Shown piece by piece: positions 26,319-32,741 of a DNA stretch of 45,447 bases. Position numbers and translations under genes: made by a program. Positions within the stretch are counted from its first letter, which is position 1; each line of letters starts with the position of its first letter. The notes beneath the pieces are model-generated. The model was not told the DNA's origin, did not search any database, and saw only the letters and a list, made by a program, of their open reading frames with translations. Source of the stretch: Campylobacteraceae bacterium (GTDB lineage: Bacteria > Campylobacterota > Campylobacteria > Campylobacterales > Sulfurospirillaceae); the NCBI GenBank assembly GCA_027050775.1, contig JALUBH010000045.1, positions 1-45,447 on the forward strand. Reading direction: 5' to 3'.

Positions 26319-26348
26319 AGAGGGTTAAGTCAATAACCCTCTTTTTTT
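26319..26348 (+). terminator. Terminator-like hairpin, plus strand
   Basis: Perfect 9-bp stem AGAGGGTTA / TAACCCTCT (26319-26327 with 26334-26342), a 6-base loop and T7 on the plus strand. The stem overlaps the stop codon of the minus-strand SelW-like gene; on the minus strand no T-run follows. It would end a short plus-strand transcript starting near the TATAAC at 26237-26242, upstream of which no plus-strand gene exists. Confidence 0.55.
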
Positions 26349-26575
26349 ATAAGTTTTGTCAACTCTCTTGGATCTGGAAATCTTTCCACAAAAGTTGCAA
26401 CTTTGTATAGTTTTGAAAAGATTAATTTTCCATTTAGACTCACTTCAAAAGCACCTCGTTCACCTGGTTTTAGTGTTACTTTTGCATCTCTAAATACCGA
26501 TTTTATCTCTTCTTCCGCACGGGAAGCTTTTGGTAAATAGTCTCAAATAACGCAGTATTTTATAACTATATCCAT
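26330..26575 (-). CDS. SelW/Rdx-like selenoprotein with C-x-x-U motif (in-frame UGA)
   Basis: 81 residues if UGA at codon 11 (26543-26545) is read as selenocysteine. It begins M-D-I-V-I-K-Y-C-V-I-U-D-Y-L-P-K-A, giving Cys8-x-x-Sec11 at the end of the first beta strand, exactly where Rdx (SelW/SelT/SelH) thioredoxin-like proteins carry their redox pair. The rest fits the family: a helix R-A-x-E-E-I, then V-x-L-x-P-G-E-R-G-A-F-E-V, then L-I-F-S-K and F-P-D-P-R-E-L. A hairpin with a G in the first loop positions lies downstream of the UGA. The ATG is preceded by AAGGA and begins one base after the stop of the upstream gene. Role: presumably thiol redox; the partner is unknown. A standard ORF call stops at the UGA and misses it. 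Confidence 0.82.
26504..26545 (-). promoter_or_regulatory. Candidate bacterial SECIS element
   Basis: Minus strand, after the UGA: 16 bases, then stem CTTCC, loop CGTGC, stem GGAAG (26512-26526). A lower stem TATTT/AGATA (26535-26539 with 26504-26508) extends it across an internal loop. The apical loop starts 21 bases after the UGA and has G as its second base, in line with the published bacterial SECIS pattern (loop 16-37 bases after UGA, G in the first two loop positions). SelB binding would decode the UGA. Confidence 0.65.
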
Positions 26576-26576
26576 A

Positions 26577-27509
26577 TTATCCATTCCTTAATTTGTCTCT
26601 GAGTTCTGCCATTTTTTGTGAAATCAGACTAGCATCTTTGACGAGTTTTGAAAGGTCTCCAAATGATTCGAGTATGACTATATGATTTTGAGCGATAGCT
26701 TGTTTGAGCAGCTCCATCATAGGTTTGAAATTTTCTTCATAAGAGGTCTTGCTTATCATCTTGTTTTTAAAGTCATAGTCTATGCCTTTGAGTATGTAGT
26801 ACATGGCTATCAAATTGCCCTTTATACGATAAAATTTATCGTCTTGTGTTGTGAAAGTTGTCTTTAGCATCAAGTTGGTTTGAAGTTGTTGCTTAAGTCT
26901 ATCAAGTGCAACTGCTAGGTTGTCAGAGTTCACTATGAAGACAGCTCTTTTCTTGCTCATATCCTTATTTTTATCCTCTTTGAGTTGTTTTAAGTATATG
27001 TTTATATTTGCTATGGCTTCTTTCACTCTTGTGCTGTAACTAGTAAATATTGGGATTCTAAAATCAGCATATACATCTGACCTTGCCTGGACTATATGTT
27101 CATTTGCCCCACCTGTTCCCCTGTTTCTTGCGAGATTATTTTCGAGTGTATATAGACCGATTCGGTACATCTCTATTTCTCCCACTTGCTCATAGTATTT
27201 GTTGTCTATCCAGCTTCTGACACCCACAAAGTTGGTTACCAATCCTTCGTTTAGTAGATTTTGCAAACCACTTTTTAGAGCATCAGTTGTTGTTTTGCCT
27301 ACTAGATTTTTATAGGTTTTGATGACTGGTACTTTGTCTGTTGTTATGCTGTAAAATGGTGCTACGATAAGACTGATGGGGAAAAACCAAAGTACAAAAG
27401 CTATGATAGCTAGTACGATAAGCAGTAAAAATCTTTTTATAAAAATTCCCCATTCTCTATAGTCAAACAGATATGAAAATATCTTTTTTTCTTCTTGAGT
27501 CTCTTCCAT
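26577..27509 (-). CDS. DUF2333-like membrane protein
   Basis: 310 residues. One membrane helix near residues 25-50 follows a short cytosolic N-terminus; the remainder should face the periplasm. Patterns such as N-L-A-R-N-R-G-T-G-G-A-N-E-H-I-V-Q-A-R-S-D and V-N-S-D-N-L-A-V-A-L-D-R-L match what I recall of DUF2333, a proteobacterial family of unknown function. It sits between the peptide-transporter ATPase gene (6-base gap) and the SelW-like gene, so it is part of that operon. Function unknown; a link to peptide uptake is only contextual. Confidence 0.65.
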   Translation of the reverse strand: MEETQEEKKIFSYLFDYREWGIFIKRFLLLIVLAIIAFVLWFFPISLIVAPFYSITTDKVPVIKTYKNLVGKTTTDALKSGLQNLLNEGLVTNFVGVRSWIDNKYYEQVGEIEMYRIGLYTLENNLARNRGTGGANEHIVQARSDVYADFRIPIFTSYSTRVKEAIANINIYLKQLKEDKNKDMSKKRAVFIVNSDNLAVALDRLKQQLQTNLMLKTTFTTQDDKFYRIKGNLIAMYYILKGIDYDFKNKMISKTSYEENFKPMMELLKQAIAQNHIVILESFGDLSKLVKDASLISQKMAELRDKLRNG

Positions 27510-27515
27510 CTGATT

Positions 27516-28307
27516 TTAATCCTTTATTGTTGGAATCGCACTAAGGAGCTTTTTTGTGTAGTCTGCTTCGGGGTTTCTAAACAGATCATCCACACTTTTT
27601 AACTCCACTATATCTCCAAAGTACATAACTACAATTCTATCTGAAATATGCTCAACAACACTTAAATCGTGTGAGATAAATATATATGTAAGGTTAAACT
27701 CTTTTTGCAAATCAAGCAATAGATTTAAAACTTGTGCCTGTATGGAGACATCAAGTGCGCTCACAGGCTCATCACAGACTATAATCTCAGGATTTAGAGC
27801 CAATGCCCTTGCTATCCCTATCCTCTGTCTTTGTCCGCCTGAAAATTGGTGAGGATATCTCTCATACCAATCAGAATGCATACCAACTTTATCCATTAGA
27901 TATAAAACTCTCTCTTTTATCTCTTTTTTGCTCATGTTAGTGTTTAGCTTCAAAGGTTCTCCTATGATGGCTCCTACTTTCCATCTAGGATTTAAGGAGG
28001 AGTATGGGTCTTGGAAGATGATTTGTACTTTTTTTCTATACTCTTCTAATTCATGGTGCTGCAGTTTGGTTATATCTTCACCATTAAAGAGTATTTTCCC
28101 TCCTGTTGGCTCTTCAATCTTTAAGATGAGTTTTGCTGTGGTTGATTTTCCGCAGCCACTCTCACCAACTATGCTTAAAACCTCACCTCTTCTGACATCA
28201 AATGATATCCCGTTTAATGCTTTTACGATTTTTGGTTTTTTAAATAACCCTAAATTTATCTCATAATATTTTTGCAAATCTTTTATTTCATATATCACAT
28301 TGCTCAT
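27516..28307 (-). CDS. dppF: Peptide ABC transporter ATPase (DppF/OppF type)
   Basis: 263 residues. Walker A G-E-S-G-C-G-K-S-T near 51, Q-loop Q-D-P-Y-S-S-L-N-P, signature F-S-G-G-Q-R-Q-R-I-G-I-A-R-A-L, Walker B I-I-V-C-D-E-P-V-S-A-L-D-V-S-I-Q-A-Q-V. These are typical of the second ATPase of dipeptide/oligopeptide importers. It lacks the long C-terminal oligopeptide extension, ending soon after the domain. Its start overlaps the dppD stop by 4 bases. Confidence 0.9.
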   Translation of the reverse strand: MSNVIYEIKDLQKYYEINLGLFKKPKIVKALNGISFDVRRGEVLSIVGESGCGKSTTAKLILKIEEPTGGKILFNGEDITKLQHHELEEYRKKVQIIFQDPYSSLNPRWKVGAIIGEPLKLNTNMSKKEIKERVLYLMDKVGMHSDWYERYPHQFSGGQRQRIGIARALALNPEIIVCDEPVSALDVSIQAQVLNLLLDLQKEFNLTYIFISHDLSVVEHISDRIVVMYFGDIVELKSVDDLFRNPEADYTKKLLSAIPTIKD

Positions 28308-29170
28308 CTAATCTCCTTTGGAAAAGAGAGATAGTCTACATCTTCATCAACAGTATCAAGTTTTGATTTTCTAGGAGTTACACCAGGCACTGGAATCGAG
28401 TGTAAAAGCGCCTTGGTATATGGGTGTTTTGGGTTATGAAAAAGTTCTTTTGCACTCGCTTTTTCGACTATATGCCCTTTGTACATAACCACTACTTCGT
28501 CAGCTATCTGATAAACTACGCCTAAGTCATGGGTGATAAAGAGTATTGATGTCCCTTTTTTCTCCTGTAACTCTTTCATGAGATCAAGCACTTGGGCTTG
28601 TATGGTCACATCAAGTGCAGTTGTGGGCTCATCTGCTATGAGAAGCTTTGGTTCACATGCCATAGCGATGGCAATCATCACTCTTTGTCTTTGTCCACCA
28701 CTTAGTTTAAACGGAAACTCCCTGTATTTTTCCCTAGGATCCGGAATTCCAACCAAATCAAGAGAATCAACAACTTTTTCAAATCTTTGTTTTTTGTTTA
28801 AGTGTTTTTGATGAAGTCCAAGTGCCTCGTCTATTTGATATCCGACAGTATAAGACGGATTTAAAGATGTCATGGGTTCTTGAAATATCATGGATATTTC
28901 GCGGCCTCTTACTTTTCTCATCTGTGCATCACTAAGTTTCAAGAGGTCTGTTCCGTCTAGTATGACTTCTCCTCCTTCTATCTCTCCTGGATGGTCTATT
29001 AGCCTTAAAATAGAGAGGGATGTTATACTTTTTCCACTACCGCTTTCTCCGACTATACATACGGTTTTGCCTTTTGGTATCTCAAAACTTACATCATTTA
29101 CTGCCTTATTCACTCCGGCCTCAGAGTGGAAAAATGTTTTTAAATTTTTTACTTCTAATAGATTTTTCAT
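28304..29170 (-). CDS. dppD: Peptide ABC transporter ATPase (DppD/OppD type)
   Basis: 288 residues. Walker A G-E-S-G-S-G-K-S, Q-loop Q-E-P-M-T-S-L-N-P, signature L-S-G-G-Q-R-Q-R-V-M-I-A-I-A-M, Walker B L-L-I-A-D-E-P-T-T-A-L-D-V-T-I-Q-A-Q-V. The C-terminal H-P-Y-T-K-A-L-L-x-S-I-P belongs to the oligopeptide/dipeptide C-terminal domain, although the four Cys of the Fe-S-type tail are absent. It pairs with dppF to power the DppBC channel. Confidence 0.9.
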   Translation of the reverse strand: MKNLLEVKNLKTFFHSEAGVNKAVNDVSFEIPKGKTVCIVGESGSGKSITSLSILRLIDHPGEIEGGEVILDGTDLLKLSDAQMRKVRGREISMIFQEPMTSLNPSYTVGYQIDEALGLHQKHLNKKQRFEKVVDSLDLVGIPDPREKYREFPFKLSGGQRQRVMIAIAMACEPKLLIADEPTTALDVTIQAQVLDLMKELQEKKGTSILFITHDLGVVYQIADEVVVMYKGHIVEKASAKELFHNPKHPYTKALLHSIPVPGVTPRKSKLDTVDEDVDYLSFPKEIR

Positions 29171-30030
29171 TATTTATCCTTTAGCTTTGGATCCAACACA
29201 TCCATAAGCCCGTCACCCATAAGGTTAAAGCTAAGAACAGTCAAAAATATAGCAACACCGGGATAAAAAATCATCCAAGAAGCAGTAGTGATAAACTCTA
29301 GTGAATCGCTTAACATCGCACCCCATTCAGGAGTTGGAGGTTGGGCACCAAGTCCTAGAAAGCTAAGACCGGCCGCTTCTAATACGGCAGAAGCAAAACC
29401 CATAGTAGCTTGAACTATGATTGGACTTGCACAGTTTGGGAGTATTACCGCAAACATCAGTCTTATATTTGATGAACCGTTGATTCGACTCGCTATCACA
29501 TACTCTTTCTCTCTCTCTGCTAGTACGGAAGCTCGTACAATCCTTGCGTAAGTCGGGATTCCTACAATTCCTATGGCTGTCATTGCACTAAAGAGACTAG
29601 GTCCGAGTATGGAGACGATTACGATAGCAAGTAAAATAGCAGGAATAGAAAGCATGATATCAACAATTCGCATGATGAAAAGATCAGTTTTACCTCCAAA
29701 GTATGCTGCTACTATGCCCATCACGAGGCCAAAGGAGAGTGAAACTCCAACAGATATAGCACCAACCATCAAAGATATACGAGATCCAAAAATTATCCTC
29801 GAGAAGAGATCTCTTCCAAAGTCATCAGTACCTAGGATGTGACTACTCACTCCTTTTGCATCCCACATAGGAGGTATGAGTCTGTCTGCCAAGTTTTGAA
29901 TATCCGGTGAATATGGTGCCACTATAGGTGCAAAAATAGCAGTAAGCAAAAGTAGTACAACTACAATAAATCCTGCAACGGCTGCCTTATTTTTTTTGTA
30001 TTGTTTTATAAATTCAAATAATTGTTCCAT
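29170..30030 (-). CDS. dppC: Peptide ABC transporter permease (DppC type)
   Basis: 286 residues, six membrane helices. An N-terminal OppC-type cap (Y-K-K-N-K-A-A-V-A-G near 11) and the periplasmic H-I-L-G-T-D-D-F-G-R-D-L-F-S-R block near 66 are characteristic; the EAA motif is E-A-A-G-L-S-F-L-G-L-G near 237. It forms the inner-membrane pore with DppB. Start and stop share single bases with dppB and dppD, showing tight coupling. Confidence 0.92.
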   Translation of the reverse strand: MEQLFEFIKQYKKNKAAVAGFIVVVLLLLTAIFAPIVAPYSPDIQNLADRLIPPMWDAKGVSSHILGTDDFGRDLFSRIIFGSRISLMVGAISVGVSLSFGLVMGIVAAYFGGKTDLFIMRIVDIMLSIPAILLAIVIVSILGPSLFSAMTAIGIVGIPTYARIVRASVLAEREKEYVIASRINGSSNIRLMFAVILPNCASPIIVQATMGFASAVLEAAGLSFLGLGAQPPTPEWGAMLSDSLEFITTASWMIFYPGVAIFLTVLSFNLMGDGLMDVLDPKLKDK

Positions 30031-31034
30031 CAGCTAAGCCTTATCTTAGGATTTATAAAAGCGTAAAGCAAATCAACTATAAAATTTACAATGATAAATA
30101 TGATGGCGATTATGAGTGTTGTTGATTGTATAACCGGAAAATCTCTTTGATAAACAGCATTTACCAGCCACTTTCCAATTCCTGGCCACGAAAATGTTGT
30201 CTCTGTTAAAATAGCCCCTGCAAAGAGACTACCTAGCATCAAACCGATTATCGTAACAACCGGCATCATGGCATTTCTTAGAGCATGTATAAATATAACT
30301 TGAAATCTACTGCATCCTTTGGCTCTTGCAGTTTTTATATACTCCTCTTTCATCACCTCTATCATACTGCTTCTAGTCATCCTAGCGATTATCGCCATAG
30401 GGATAGTACCTAGTGCAATAGCTGGAAGAATTAGATGTTTTAAAGCATCCCAAAATGCAGGTATATTGTCTGTTAAAAGTGAATCTACAAGATATAATCC
30501 TGTGATATGGTCTATGTCAAACTGATACCCAAGCCGACCTGAAACAGGAAGCCACTCAAGCCGTACGGAAAAAAAGTATATAAGCACAAGCCCGAGCCAA
30601 AAGACGGGCATCGAAACCCCGGCCAATGCACCAAACATACTCCCGTAATCAAATATGGAGTATCTCTTCACCGCAGAAACTATTCCAGCCCCGATACCCA
30701 AAATAATAGCAAAAAACATAGCCACCATGGAGAGCTCAACCGTAGCTGGAAAACGATCCATAAACTCAGTCATAACTTCTTCATCACTATTTGCTGATTT
30801 CCCAAAATCACCATGTGATAAATTTTTAATATATATAAAATATTGCATATATAGTGGCTTATCAAGTCCCATTTGTGCTCTCAAATCAGCTATAGATTGT
30901 TTGTTTGCTTTGTCACCAAGTATGGCTGCAGCTGGATCACCGGGTGTTAGGTGAACCATAGAAAAAACAAGTAGAGTAACGCCAAAGAGAGTGGGAATTG
31001 TCCAAAGTAGCCTTTTAACAATGTATGAAAACAA
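30030..31034 (-). CDS. dppB: Peptide ABC transporter permease (DppB type)
   Basis: 334 residues with six membrane helices. N-terminal W-T-I-P-T-L-F-G-V-T and H-L-T-P-G-D-P are typical of DppB/OppB; the EAA loop reads T-A-R-A-K-G-C-S near 238. The C-terminal T-E-T-x-F-S-W-P-G-I-G and Y-A-F-I-N-P-K-I-R complete the family pattern. It is the first gene after the binding protein, separated from it by 114 bases with a strong hairpin. Confidence 0.92.
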   Translation of the reverse strand: MFSYIVKRLLWTIPTLFGVTLLVFSMVHLTPGDPAAAILGDKANKQSIADLRAQMGLDKPLYMQYFIYIKNLSHGDFGKSANSDEEVMTEFMDRFPATVELSMVAMFFAIILGIGAGIVSAVKRYSIFDYGSMFGALAGVSMPVFWLGLVLIYFFSVRLEWLPVSGRLGYQFDIDHITGLYLVDSLLTDNIPAFWDALKHLILPAIALGTIPMAIIARMTRSSMIEVMKEEYIKTARAKGCSRFQVIFIHALRNAMMPVVTIIGLMLGSLFAGAILTETTFSWPGIGKWLVNAVYQRDFPVIQSTTLIIAIIFIIVNFIVDLLYAFINPKIRLS

Positions 31035-31108
31035 AAATTCTCCTTAATATATCTGAGCTTACACACGAGCTATAAAATATAAATAGTGGGTAAGGTCAGT
31101 TAGTGGTG

Positions 31109-31137
31109 ATGTAAAGAGAGCTCGGCTCTCTTTACAT
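31109..31137 (-). terminator. 13-bp stem-loop between dppA and dppB
   Basis: ATGTAAAGAGAGC / GCTCTCTTTACAT (31109-31121 with 31125-31137), a perfect 13-bp stem with loop TCG. It lies 10 bases after the binding-protein stop and lacks a run of U on the minus strand, so it is more likely an mRNA-stabilising or partially attenuating structure that keeps binding-protein expression above the permease genes. It is overlapped by the palindrome TTTACATGTAAA. Confidence 0.6.
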
Positions 31138-31148
31138 GTAAAGGTCTG

Positions 31149-32741
31149 TTATTTACCAAACCAAACTTTATTGAATCTTCTTTTACCTATAGGGTCAAGC
31201 TTGAAGTTCATAACATTTTTTCTAATAGGCTCAACAACCAATGAGTTGGCGATTGTTACCCAAGGAACTTGCTTTGCAAATATCTCTTGAGCTTCCATGT
31301 AGAGTTTAGTTCTTACTTTTATGTCAGTTGTAGTTTTTGCTTTTGCTATCAAAGCATCAAACTTTTTATTTTTCCAACCGGCTCTGTTTGAAGCTGGAAT
31401 TTTAGCGGCATTTGAAGTCAAAAGAACATTTAGGAAGTTATCCGGATCCCCGTTGTCACCAGTCCATCCAAGGAGACAAGAGTCATCTTTATAGTGTCTT
31501 CCTTTGTCTAGATAAGTACCCCAGTCATAGCTTACAATTTTTGTTGTAACACCAACTTTTGCCAAGTCTGCTTGCATAGCTTCTGCTACTTTTCTTGCAT
31601 TTGGCATATATGGACGAGCCACCGGCATTGCCCAAAGTTCAAATGAAAGTTTTGGATAGCCAGCCTCTTTTAAAAGTTGCTTTGCTTTTGCAGGGTTATA
31701 CTTGTATTTTGTTACATTTGGATTGTAACTCCACATCGTAGGAGGAATCGGAGTATATGCAGGTCTACCAAAACCGGCATATATCGCTTTTACTATCGCT
31801 TCTTTATTGATGGCGTAGTTTATAGCTCTTCTTACTCTTACATCTCTAAATGGAGCAAATTTTACTTGATCAAGAGCAAGATAGCCGACATTTAAACCTT
31901 CTTGCTTTACAAGTTTTATGTTGGGATCTGCTTGAAGTCCCGCGATTTCTGCAGGATTTGGAAAGTCCATCACTTGTATGGAGCCGGTTCTTAACTCGGC
32001 CGCTCTAACTGAAGAGTTTGTGATAACTTTAAGAATCAGCTTCTTGATGTAAGGCTTGCCTTCCCAATAGTTTTTATTTGCTGTAAATATCATTTTGTCA
32101 TCTTTTACCCACTTTACCAAAACAAATGGCCCGGTTCCTACGGGGTATCTTGAAAGTTTATCAGCCTTACCCTCTTTTAGTAAATCCATAGCATATGTTT
32201 TTGAGAGGATTGAAGCGAAGTCCATAGCCATATTTGATAAAAACGGAGCTTCTGGTTTTTTTAGTGTGATTTTTACAGTGTATTTATCGATTTTGATAAC
32301 ATCTTTGACGATTTCACCCATATCCATAGCGCCCCAATACTTGTAAGAACCACCTATTTTATTGTAAGGGTTTGTTTTGTCAAACTGTCTTTTTATAGAA
32401 AAGAGTACATCATCTGCTGTAAATTCATTTCTTTTCTTATAATATTTTGTAGGATGAAAATATACACCTTTTCTTAAATGAAAAGTGTATGATAAACCAT
32501 CTTTTGCTACATCCCAAGATGTGGCAAGTCCTGGTTCCATAATTGTTGTTCTGTTTTTGAACTGCACAAGAGTATTATATACTTGTGTTGAAGCATAAAA
32601 GCTCTCCCCGTCAGTTACATATGCCGGATCAATTCCAACTGAATTCCCACTTCTTCCAAAGACCAATACGCCACCATACTTCGGTGCAGCATACATTAAA
32701 GTTGTTGCAAACAACAAAGCTGTTATGAGTAGTTTTCTCAT
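31149..32741 (-). CDS. dppA: Periplasmic peptide-binding protein (DppA/OppA type)
   Basis: 530 residues. Signal peptide M-R-K-L-L-I-T-A-L-L-F-A-T-T-L-M-Y-A then a mature start G-G-V-L-V-F-G. The SBP_bac_5 signature is visible: Y-x-F-H-L-R-K-G-V-Y-F-H near 88, F-T-A-D-D-V-L-F-S, Y-P-V-G-T-G-P-F, then F-R-D-V-R-V-R-R-A-I-N-Y-A-I-N. It captures the peptide in the periplasm for DppBCDF. With a murein-type dipeptide epimerase gene divergent from it, murein peptides are a reasonable ligand, but this is inference. An AGGTAATTC site precedes the ATG. Confidence 0.92.
   Translation of the reverse strand: MRKLLITALLFATTLMYAAPKYGGVLVFGRSGNSVGIDPAYVTDGESFYASTQVYNTLVQFKNRTTIMEPGLATSWDVAKDGLSYTFHLRKGVYFHPTKYYKKRNEFTADDVLFSIKRQFDKTNPYNKIGGSYKYWGAMDMGEIVKDVIKIDKYTVKITLKKPEAPFLSNMAMDFASILSKTYAMDLLKEGKADKLSRYPVGTGPFVLVKWVKDDKMIFTANKNYWEGKPYIKKLILKVITNSSVRAAELRTGSIQVMDFPNPAEIAGLQADPNIKLVKQEGLNVGYLALDQVKFAPFRDVRVRRAINYAINKEAIVKAIYAGFGRPAYTPIPPTMWSYNPNVTKYKYNPAKAKQLLKEAGYPKLSFELWAMPVARPYMPNARKVAEAMQADLAKVGVTTKIVSYDWGTYLDKGRHYKDDSCLLGWTGDNGDPDNFLNVLLTSNAAKIPASNRAGWKNKKFDALIAKAKTTTDIKVRTKLYMEAQEIFAKQVPWVTIANSLVVEPIRKNVMNFKLDPIGKRRFNKVWFGK

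Follow-up and report, generated by a model that had tools for sequence, protein, structure and literature searches.

Insertion of selenocysteine (Sec) by SelB at a SECIS element is an established process in bacteria. SELENOW-like CxxU proteins are among the predicted prokaryotic selenoproteins (PMC13188914), and the SelW of Campylobacter jejuni was included in a selenoprotein survey of 2005 (PMC1242214). In Epsilonproteobacteria, Cravedi et al. (2015) described a selenoproteome of Fdh, SelD and SelW, with SECIS elements having an apical hairpin of 5/6 bp and an invariant loop G, and reported that the SelW genes had been wholly missed by annotation (PMC4607533). The C. jejuni SelW, located on CJnc60 and 81 or 80 aa long with a UGA decoded by tRNA-Sec, was also overlooked by annotation, and its full-length translation past the UGA was demonstrated in 2025 by Ribo-seq, termination-site profiling and mass spectrometry (PMC11955535). 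The SelW family, its UGA codon and its annotation gaps are already published for this bacterial group.

Here we describe a selW gene in a window of 45,447 nucleotides, that is, the whole stretch of DNA analysed, from a Campylobacteraceae genome. This genome is like the selenoproteome of Cravedi et al. in its Fdh, SelD and SelW and in its type of hairpin with an invariant loop G. Judged by the published description, the C. jejuni SelW resembles the present one in being small, UGA-containing and prone to be overlooked by annotation, whereas the former comes from an intergenic RNA and the latter follows a DUF2333 gene after 1 nt. We regard it as almost certain that selW encodes an Rdx-family, SelW-like selenoprotein, a presumed thiol-disulfide oxidoreductase which takes up Sec at codon 11 by means of a hairpin. 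The gene is an ordinary new example, whose correct annotation leaves the understanding of the family unchanged, and it illustrates an annotation blind spot in which the UGA hides a gene from a standard ORF search.

The selW frame and its read-through product

The frame lies on the minus strand, where it opens with the ATG at 26575, passes through 9 codons to the UGA at codon 11 and continues for 70 codons to a TGA ending at 26330 (Table 1). The preliminary description of this DNA had given the span 26330-26575, and these coordinates stand; it left the strand unstated, and a plus-strand reading of the same span was rejected, as it contains stops throughout. The UGA at codon 11 within a C-x-x-U motif, as claimed there, is found on the minus strand as C8-V-I-U11. 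Read through, the predicted sequence is MDIVIKYCVIUDYLPKASRAEEEIKSVFRDAKVTLKPGERGAFEVSLNGKLIFSKLYKVATFVERFPDPRELTKLIKKEGY. Because of the in-frame UGA, selW is absent from the standard ORF list, in which no table 11 ORF of at least 60 aa occurs in the minus-strand selW region, so a standard gene caller would probably miss it. When both strands were scanned for a TGA with a comparable hairpin, 30 sites were obtained, and selW alone among them combines an upstream start with 55 or more open codons past the TGA.

Table 1. Positions of selW, its predicted decoding signals and the genes preceding it, numbered along the window.
Feature	Position	Strand	Basis or remark
selW	26330..26575	minus	81 residues, predicted Sec at codon 11, terminal stop TGA
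UGA codon, predicted selenocysteine	26543..26545	minus	motif C8-V-I-U11
Candidate SECIS apical hairpin CUUCC-CGUGC-GGAAG	26512..26526	minus	pairing and covariation in 28 distinct sequences; MFE fold
DUF2333 gene	26577..27509	minus	directly upstream of selW; Pfam PF10095, 46.8 bits
Peptide ABC transporter operon (dppF, D, C, B, A-like)	27516..32741	minus	ORF list; precedes DUF2333

The product scores 68.5 bits with the Pfam family PF10262 (Rdx; cutoff 22.6), over positions 2-74 of the 74 in the profile, and 57.9 bits with TIGR02174 (CXXU_selWTH; cutoff 34.2). Its match to the Campylobacter-specific equivalog NF041051 (SelTWH_Campy), by which the organism would belong to the Campylobacterota, also takes in the whole domain, at 83.3 bits and thus slightly below the cutoff of 88; since this cutoff is not reached while that of TIGR02174 is passed, the predicted protein is filed under the broader TIGR02174. 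Both the SelW/Rdx identity and the fit of the 81 read-through residues to the family up to the end, as proposed before, are borne out by these scores and by an Rdx match over the full domain length. The NCBIfam and Pfam domain matches span residues 3 to 77-78, and solved Rdx structures such as 2oka, 2obk and 2fa8 match the same region by sequence comparison; family membership would predict a thioredoxin-like fold. The top PDB matches were designed PPR/alpha-solenoid proteins, which we dismissed as repeat artefacts. In an alignment of 20 sequences the invariant residues include Y7, C8, U11, Y13, P15, A17, R19, G41, F43, F53-S54-K55, R65, P67 and E71, so that both ends of the C-x-x-U redox motif near the N-terminus (positions 8 and 11) are among them.

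Conservation of the UGA codon and the hairpin

We searched for selW in a sample of 60 genomes, the own genome of the gene included. It was found in 32 of them, each copy with exactly one in-frame TGA (32/32), and the TGA sits at the same codon in all 30 copies that were extracted; no Cys copy was found among the 32 carriers in the 60 genomes. Homologues without Cys or Sec at position 11 and with broken frames, which the preliminary description had named as a possible refutation, are not what these copies present, the UGA codon being kept. In comparison with the nearest relative, the changes downstream of the UGA number 3, 2 and 11 at codon positions 1, 2 and 3, and this third-position bias indicates that the part behind the UGA is under coding constraint. 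Cys-containing homologues occur in Demequina, archaea and other lineages, as obtained with a pattern scan that required Cys at the motif and hence returned Cys forms alone; they belong to the same family with a C-x-x-C motif, carrying Cys where the present protein would carry Sec at position 11. A tblastn search of a plasmid collection gave only two distant Rhizobium-type relatives. In one genome (G034, locus L046) the selW frame shifts after about residue 52 and reads IFQRQKKLARPLSAF where the family has IFSKTEKIGTPIERF, suggestive of a frameshift that is either real or due to sequencing error.

The hairpin with loop CGUGC that had been noted to start 16 nt past the UGA is confirmed as conserved and covarying. 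It has a 5-bp stem and is the minimum-free-energy fold of the single sequence at -5.4 kcal/mol, though with a stability z of only -0.88 in single-sequence folding, which is unexceptional; stability by itself therefore proves nothing, and the evidence lies in conservation. All cells of the stem (100%) are paired in 28 distinct sequences; 3 of its 5 pairs show compensatory changes, and 17 cells are changed on both sides, compared with 4.4 in shuffles. The apical loop is CGUGC/U or a variant of it, and its G is invariant in the relatives. The lower stem that was thought to extend the hairpin did not hold up in the same way: the window contains bases that could form it, yet the predicted fold lacks it, and in the relatives 75% of its cells are paired and no covariation was found, so the lower part of the putative SECIS appears weak. 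An Rfam scan of the window returned no RNA family at the gathering threshold and thus gives no SECIS support either way.

Selenocysteine machinery and other readings of the UGA codon

Absence of selA, selB and selC from the genome had also been named as grounds for refutation; a check for these genes and selD found all four in the own genome. Its tRNA-Sec scores 53.7 bits and is also called as tRNA-SeC by ARAGORN, selA and selB adjoin on one contig (C11) with selB over cutoff, and both selD and the formate dehydrogenase gene for FdhA contain an in-frame UGA. As a well-supported addition, selW joins SelD and formate dehydrogenase in the selenoproteome of this genome. The selD gene (L018:1237-2466, on the same contig C11) has its UGA as KAAGUAAKL and comes after a gene resembling yedF.

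Among the 32 selW carriers of the sample, 29 have selA over cutoff; among the 28 other genomes, 9 do. Two carriers without selA, G004 and G005, look like incomplete assemblies, because both have tRNA-Sec and G005 has selB as well. Another carrier, G029 of genus g3 (locus L041), is 99% complete and keeps selW with its UGA and a compensated hairpin, CUCUG/CAGAG, while selA, selB, tRNA-Sec (selC), selD and a UGA-containing formate dehydrogenase were looked for there and not found. In its relative G015 a single contig of 160 kb contains selA, selB, selC, selD and two UGA-containing fdhA. The G029 assembly may therefore lack a piece; a recent loss is possible too.

It is G029 that could favour a reading of the UGA not as selenocysteine but by a suppressor such as a near-cognate tRNA, in that selW is kept where none of the four sel genes was found. 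We consider this very improbable, given the covarying SECIS hairpin and the CxxU site, the complete Sec machinery of the own genome and the strong co-occurrence of selW with selA, and given that the gap in G029 may itself reflect a missing piece of its assembly. Still less credible is that selW is a pseudogene or a sequencing error, in which a TGA would interrupt an Rdx gene of the Cys type. An in-frame stop usually signals decay, and Cys forms do occur in other lineages, but the TGA is shared by all 32 homologues of the sample, which belong to five genera, the frame past it stays open with changes biased to third positions, and the hairpin behind it covaries. With the UGA and the frame thus conserved, we rejected the pseudogene reading and retain that of a selenoprotein.

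Genomic neighbourhood and proposed role

We propose that the ribosome starts at the ATG of selW, probably through coupling to the DUF2333 gene or re-initiation behind it, and that a complex of SelB and Sec-tRNA, recruited by the downstream hairpin, would then place Sec at codon 11 without termination. The product would be a thioredoxin-like Rdx fold carrying the C-x-x-U site, which most likely cycles between the reduced selenolate/thiol and the selenenylsulfide, so that SelW, as a thiol-disulfide oxidoreductase, may help to maintain the redox state of the cytoplasm; that the site has a redox role is deduced from the family. In this organism, frame, UGA, hairpin, family and sel genes are read directly from the sequence, and we infer from them the Sec insertion, the coupling, the fold and the redox chemistry.

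The coupling to a DUF2333 gene at the end of a peptide transporter operon, which the preliminary description considered an unexpected place for such a protein, stands as to the adjacency and not as to the oddity. A gap of 1 nt separates the end of the DUF2333 gene from the selW ATG, and in all nine members of the genus that have selW the DUF2333 gene lies directly before it, with a gap of -1 to 9 nt; a dppF-like sequence precedes DUF2333 in eight of these nine, the dpp names in the operon having been given by reading the translations and not by a family search. In other genera selW mostly follows a different gene, or stands alone. Since the adjacency is constant within the genus and inconstant outside it, the coupling is not a general functional link, and the placement of selW behind the dpp operon is mainly a local gene-order habit at the genus level.

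The same neighbourhood could be taken to mean that SelW is a dedicated redox partner of DUF2333 or of the peptide transporter and not a general thiol-redox protein. In favour of this are the constant position of DUF2333 within the genus and the dpp genes found upstream of selW in some genomes from two further genera (G033, G019, G021). However, outside the genus selW has other upstream genes, such as one in genus g3 that looks like an EAL-HDOD protein (its translation read by eye only), or none, and most of the members examined in the other genera have no dpp genes within ~8 kb upstream of selW. We therefore judge a dedicated partner unlikely, and a genus-specific partnership, in which SelW would keep an envelope or transport protein reduced, similarly doubtful; a general thiol-redox role for SelW is preferred.

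A different arrangement was observed in G008, of the same genus, where a stop-less selW (L024:355-1752, minus strand) continues in frame into a glycerate-kinase-type protein. The Pfam domains follow in the order Rdx (61 bits), DUF4147 (190 bits) and MOFRL (91 bits), and a SelW-kinase fusion is possible. At L022, which is related to L024, a similar-looking ORF forms a gene of its own, 8 nt downstream of selW.
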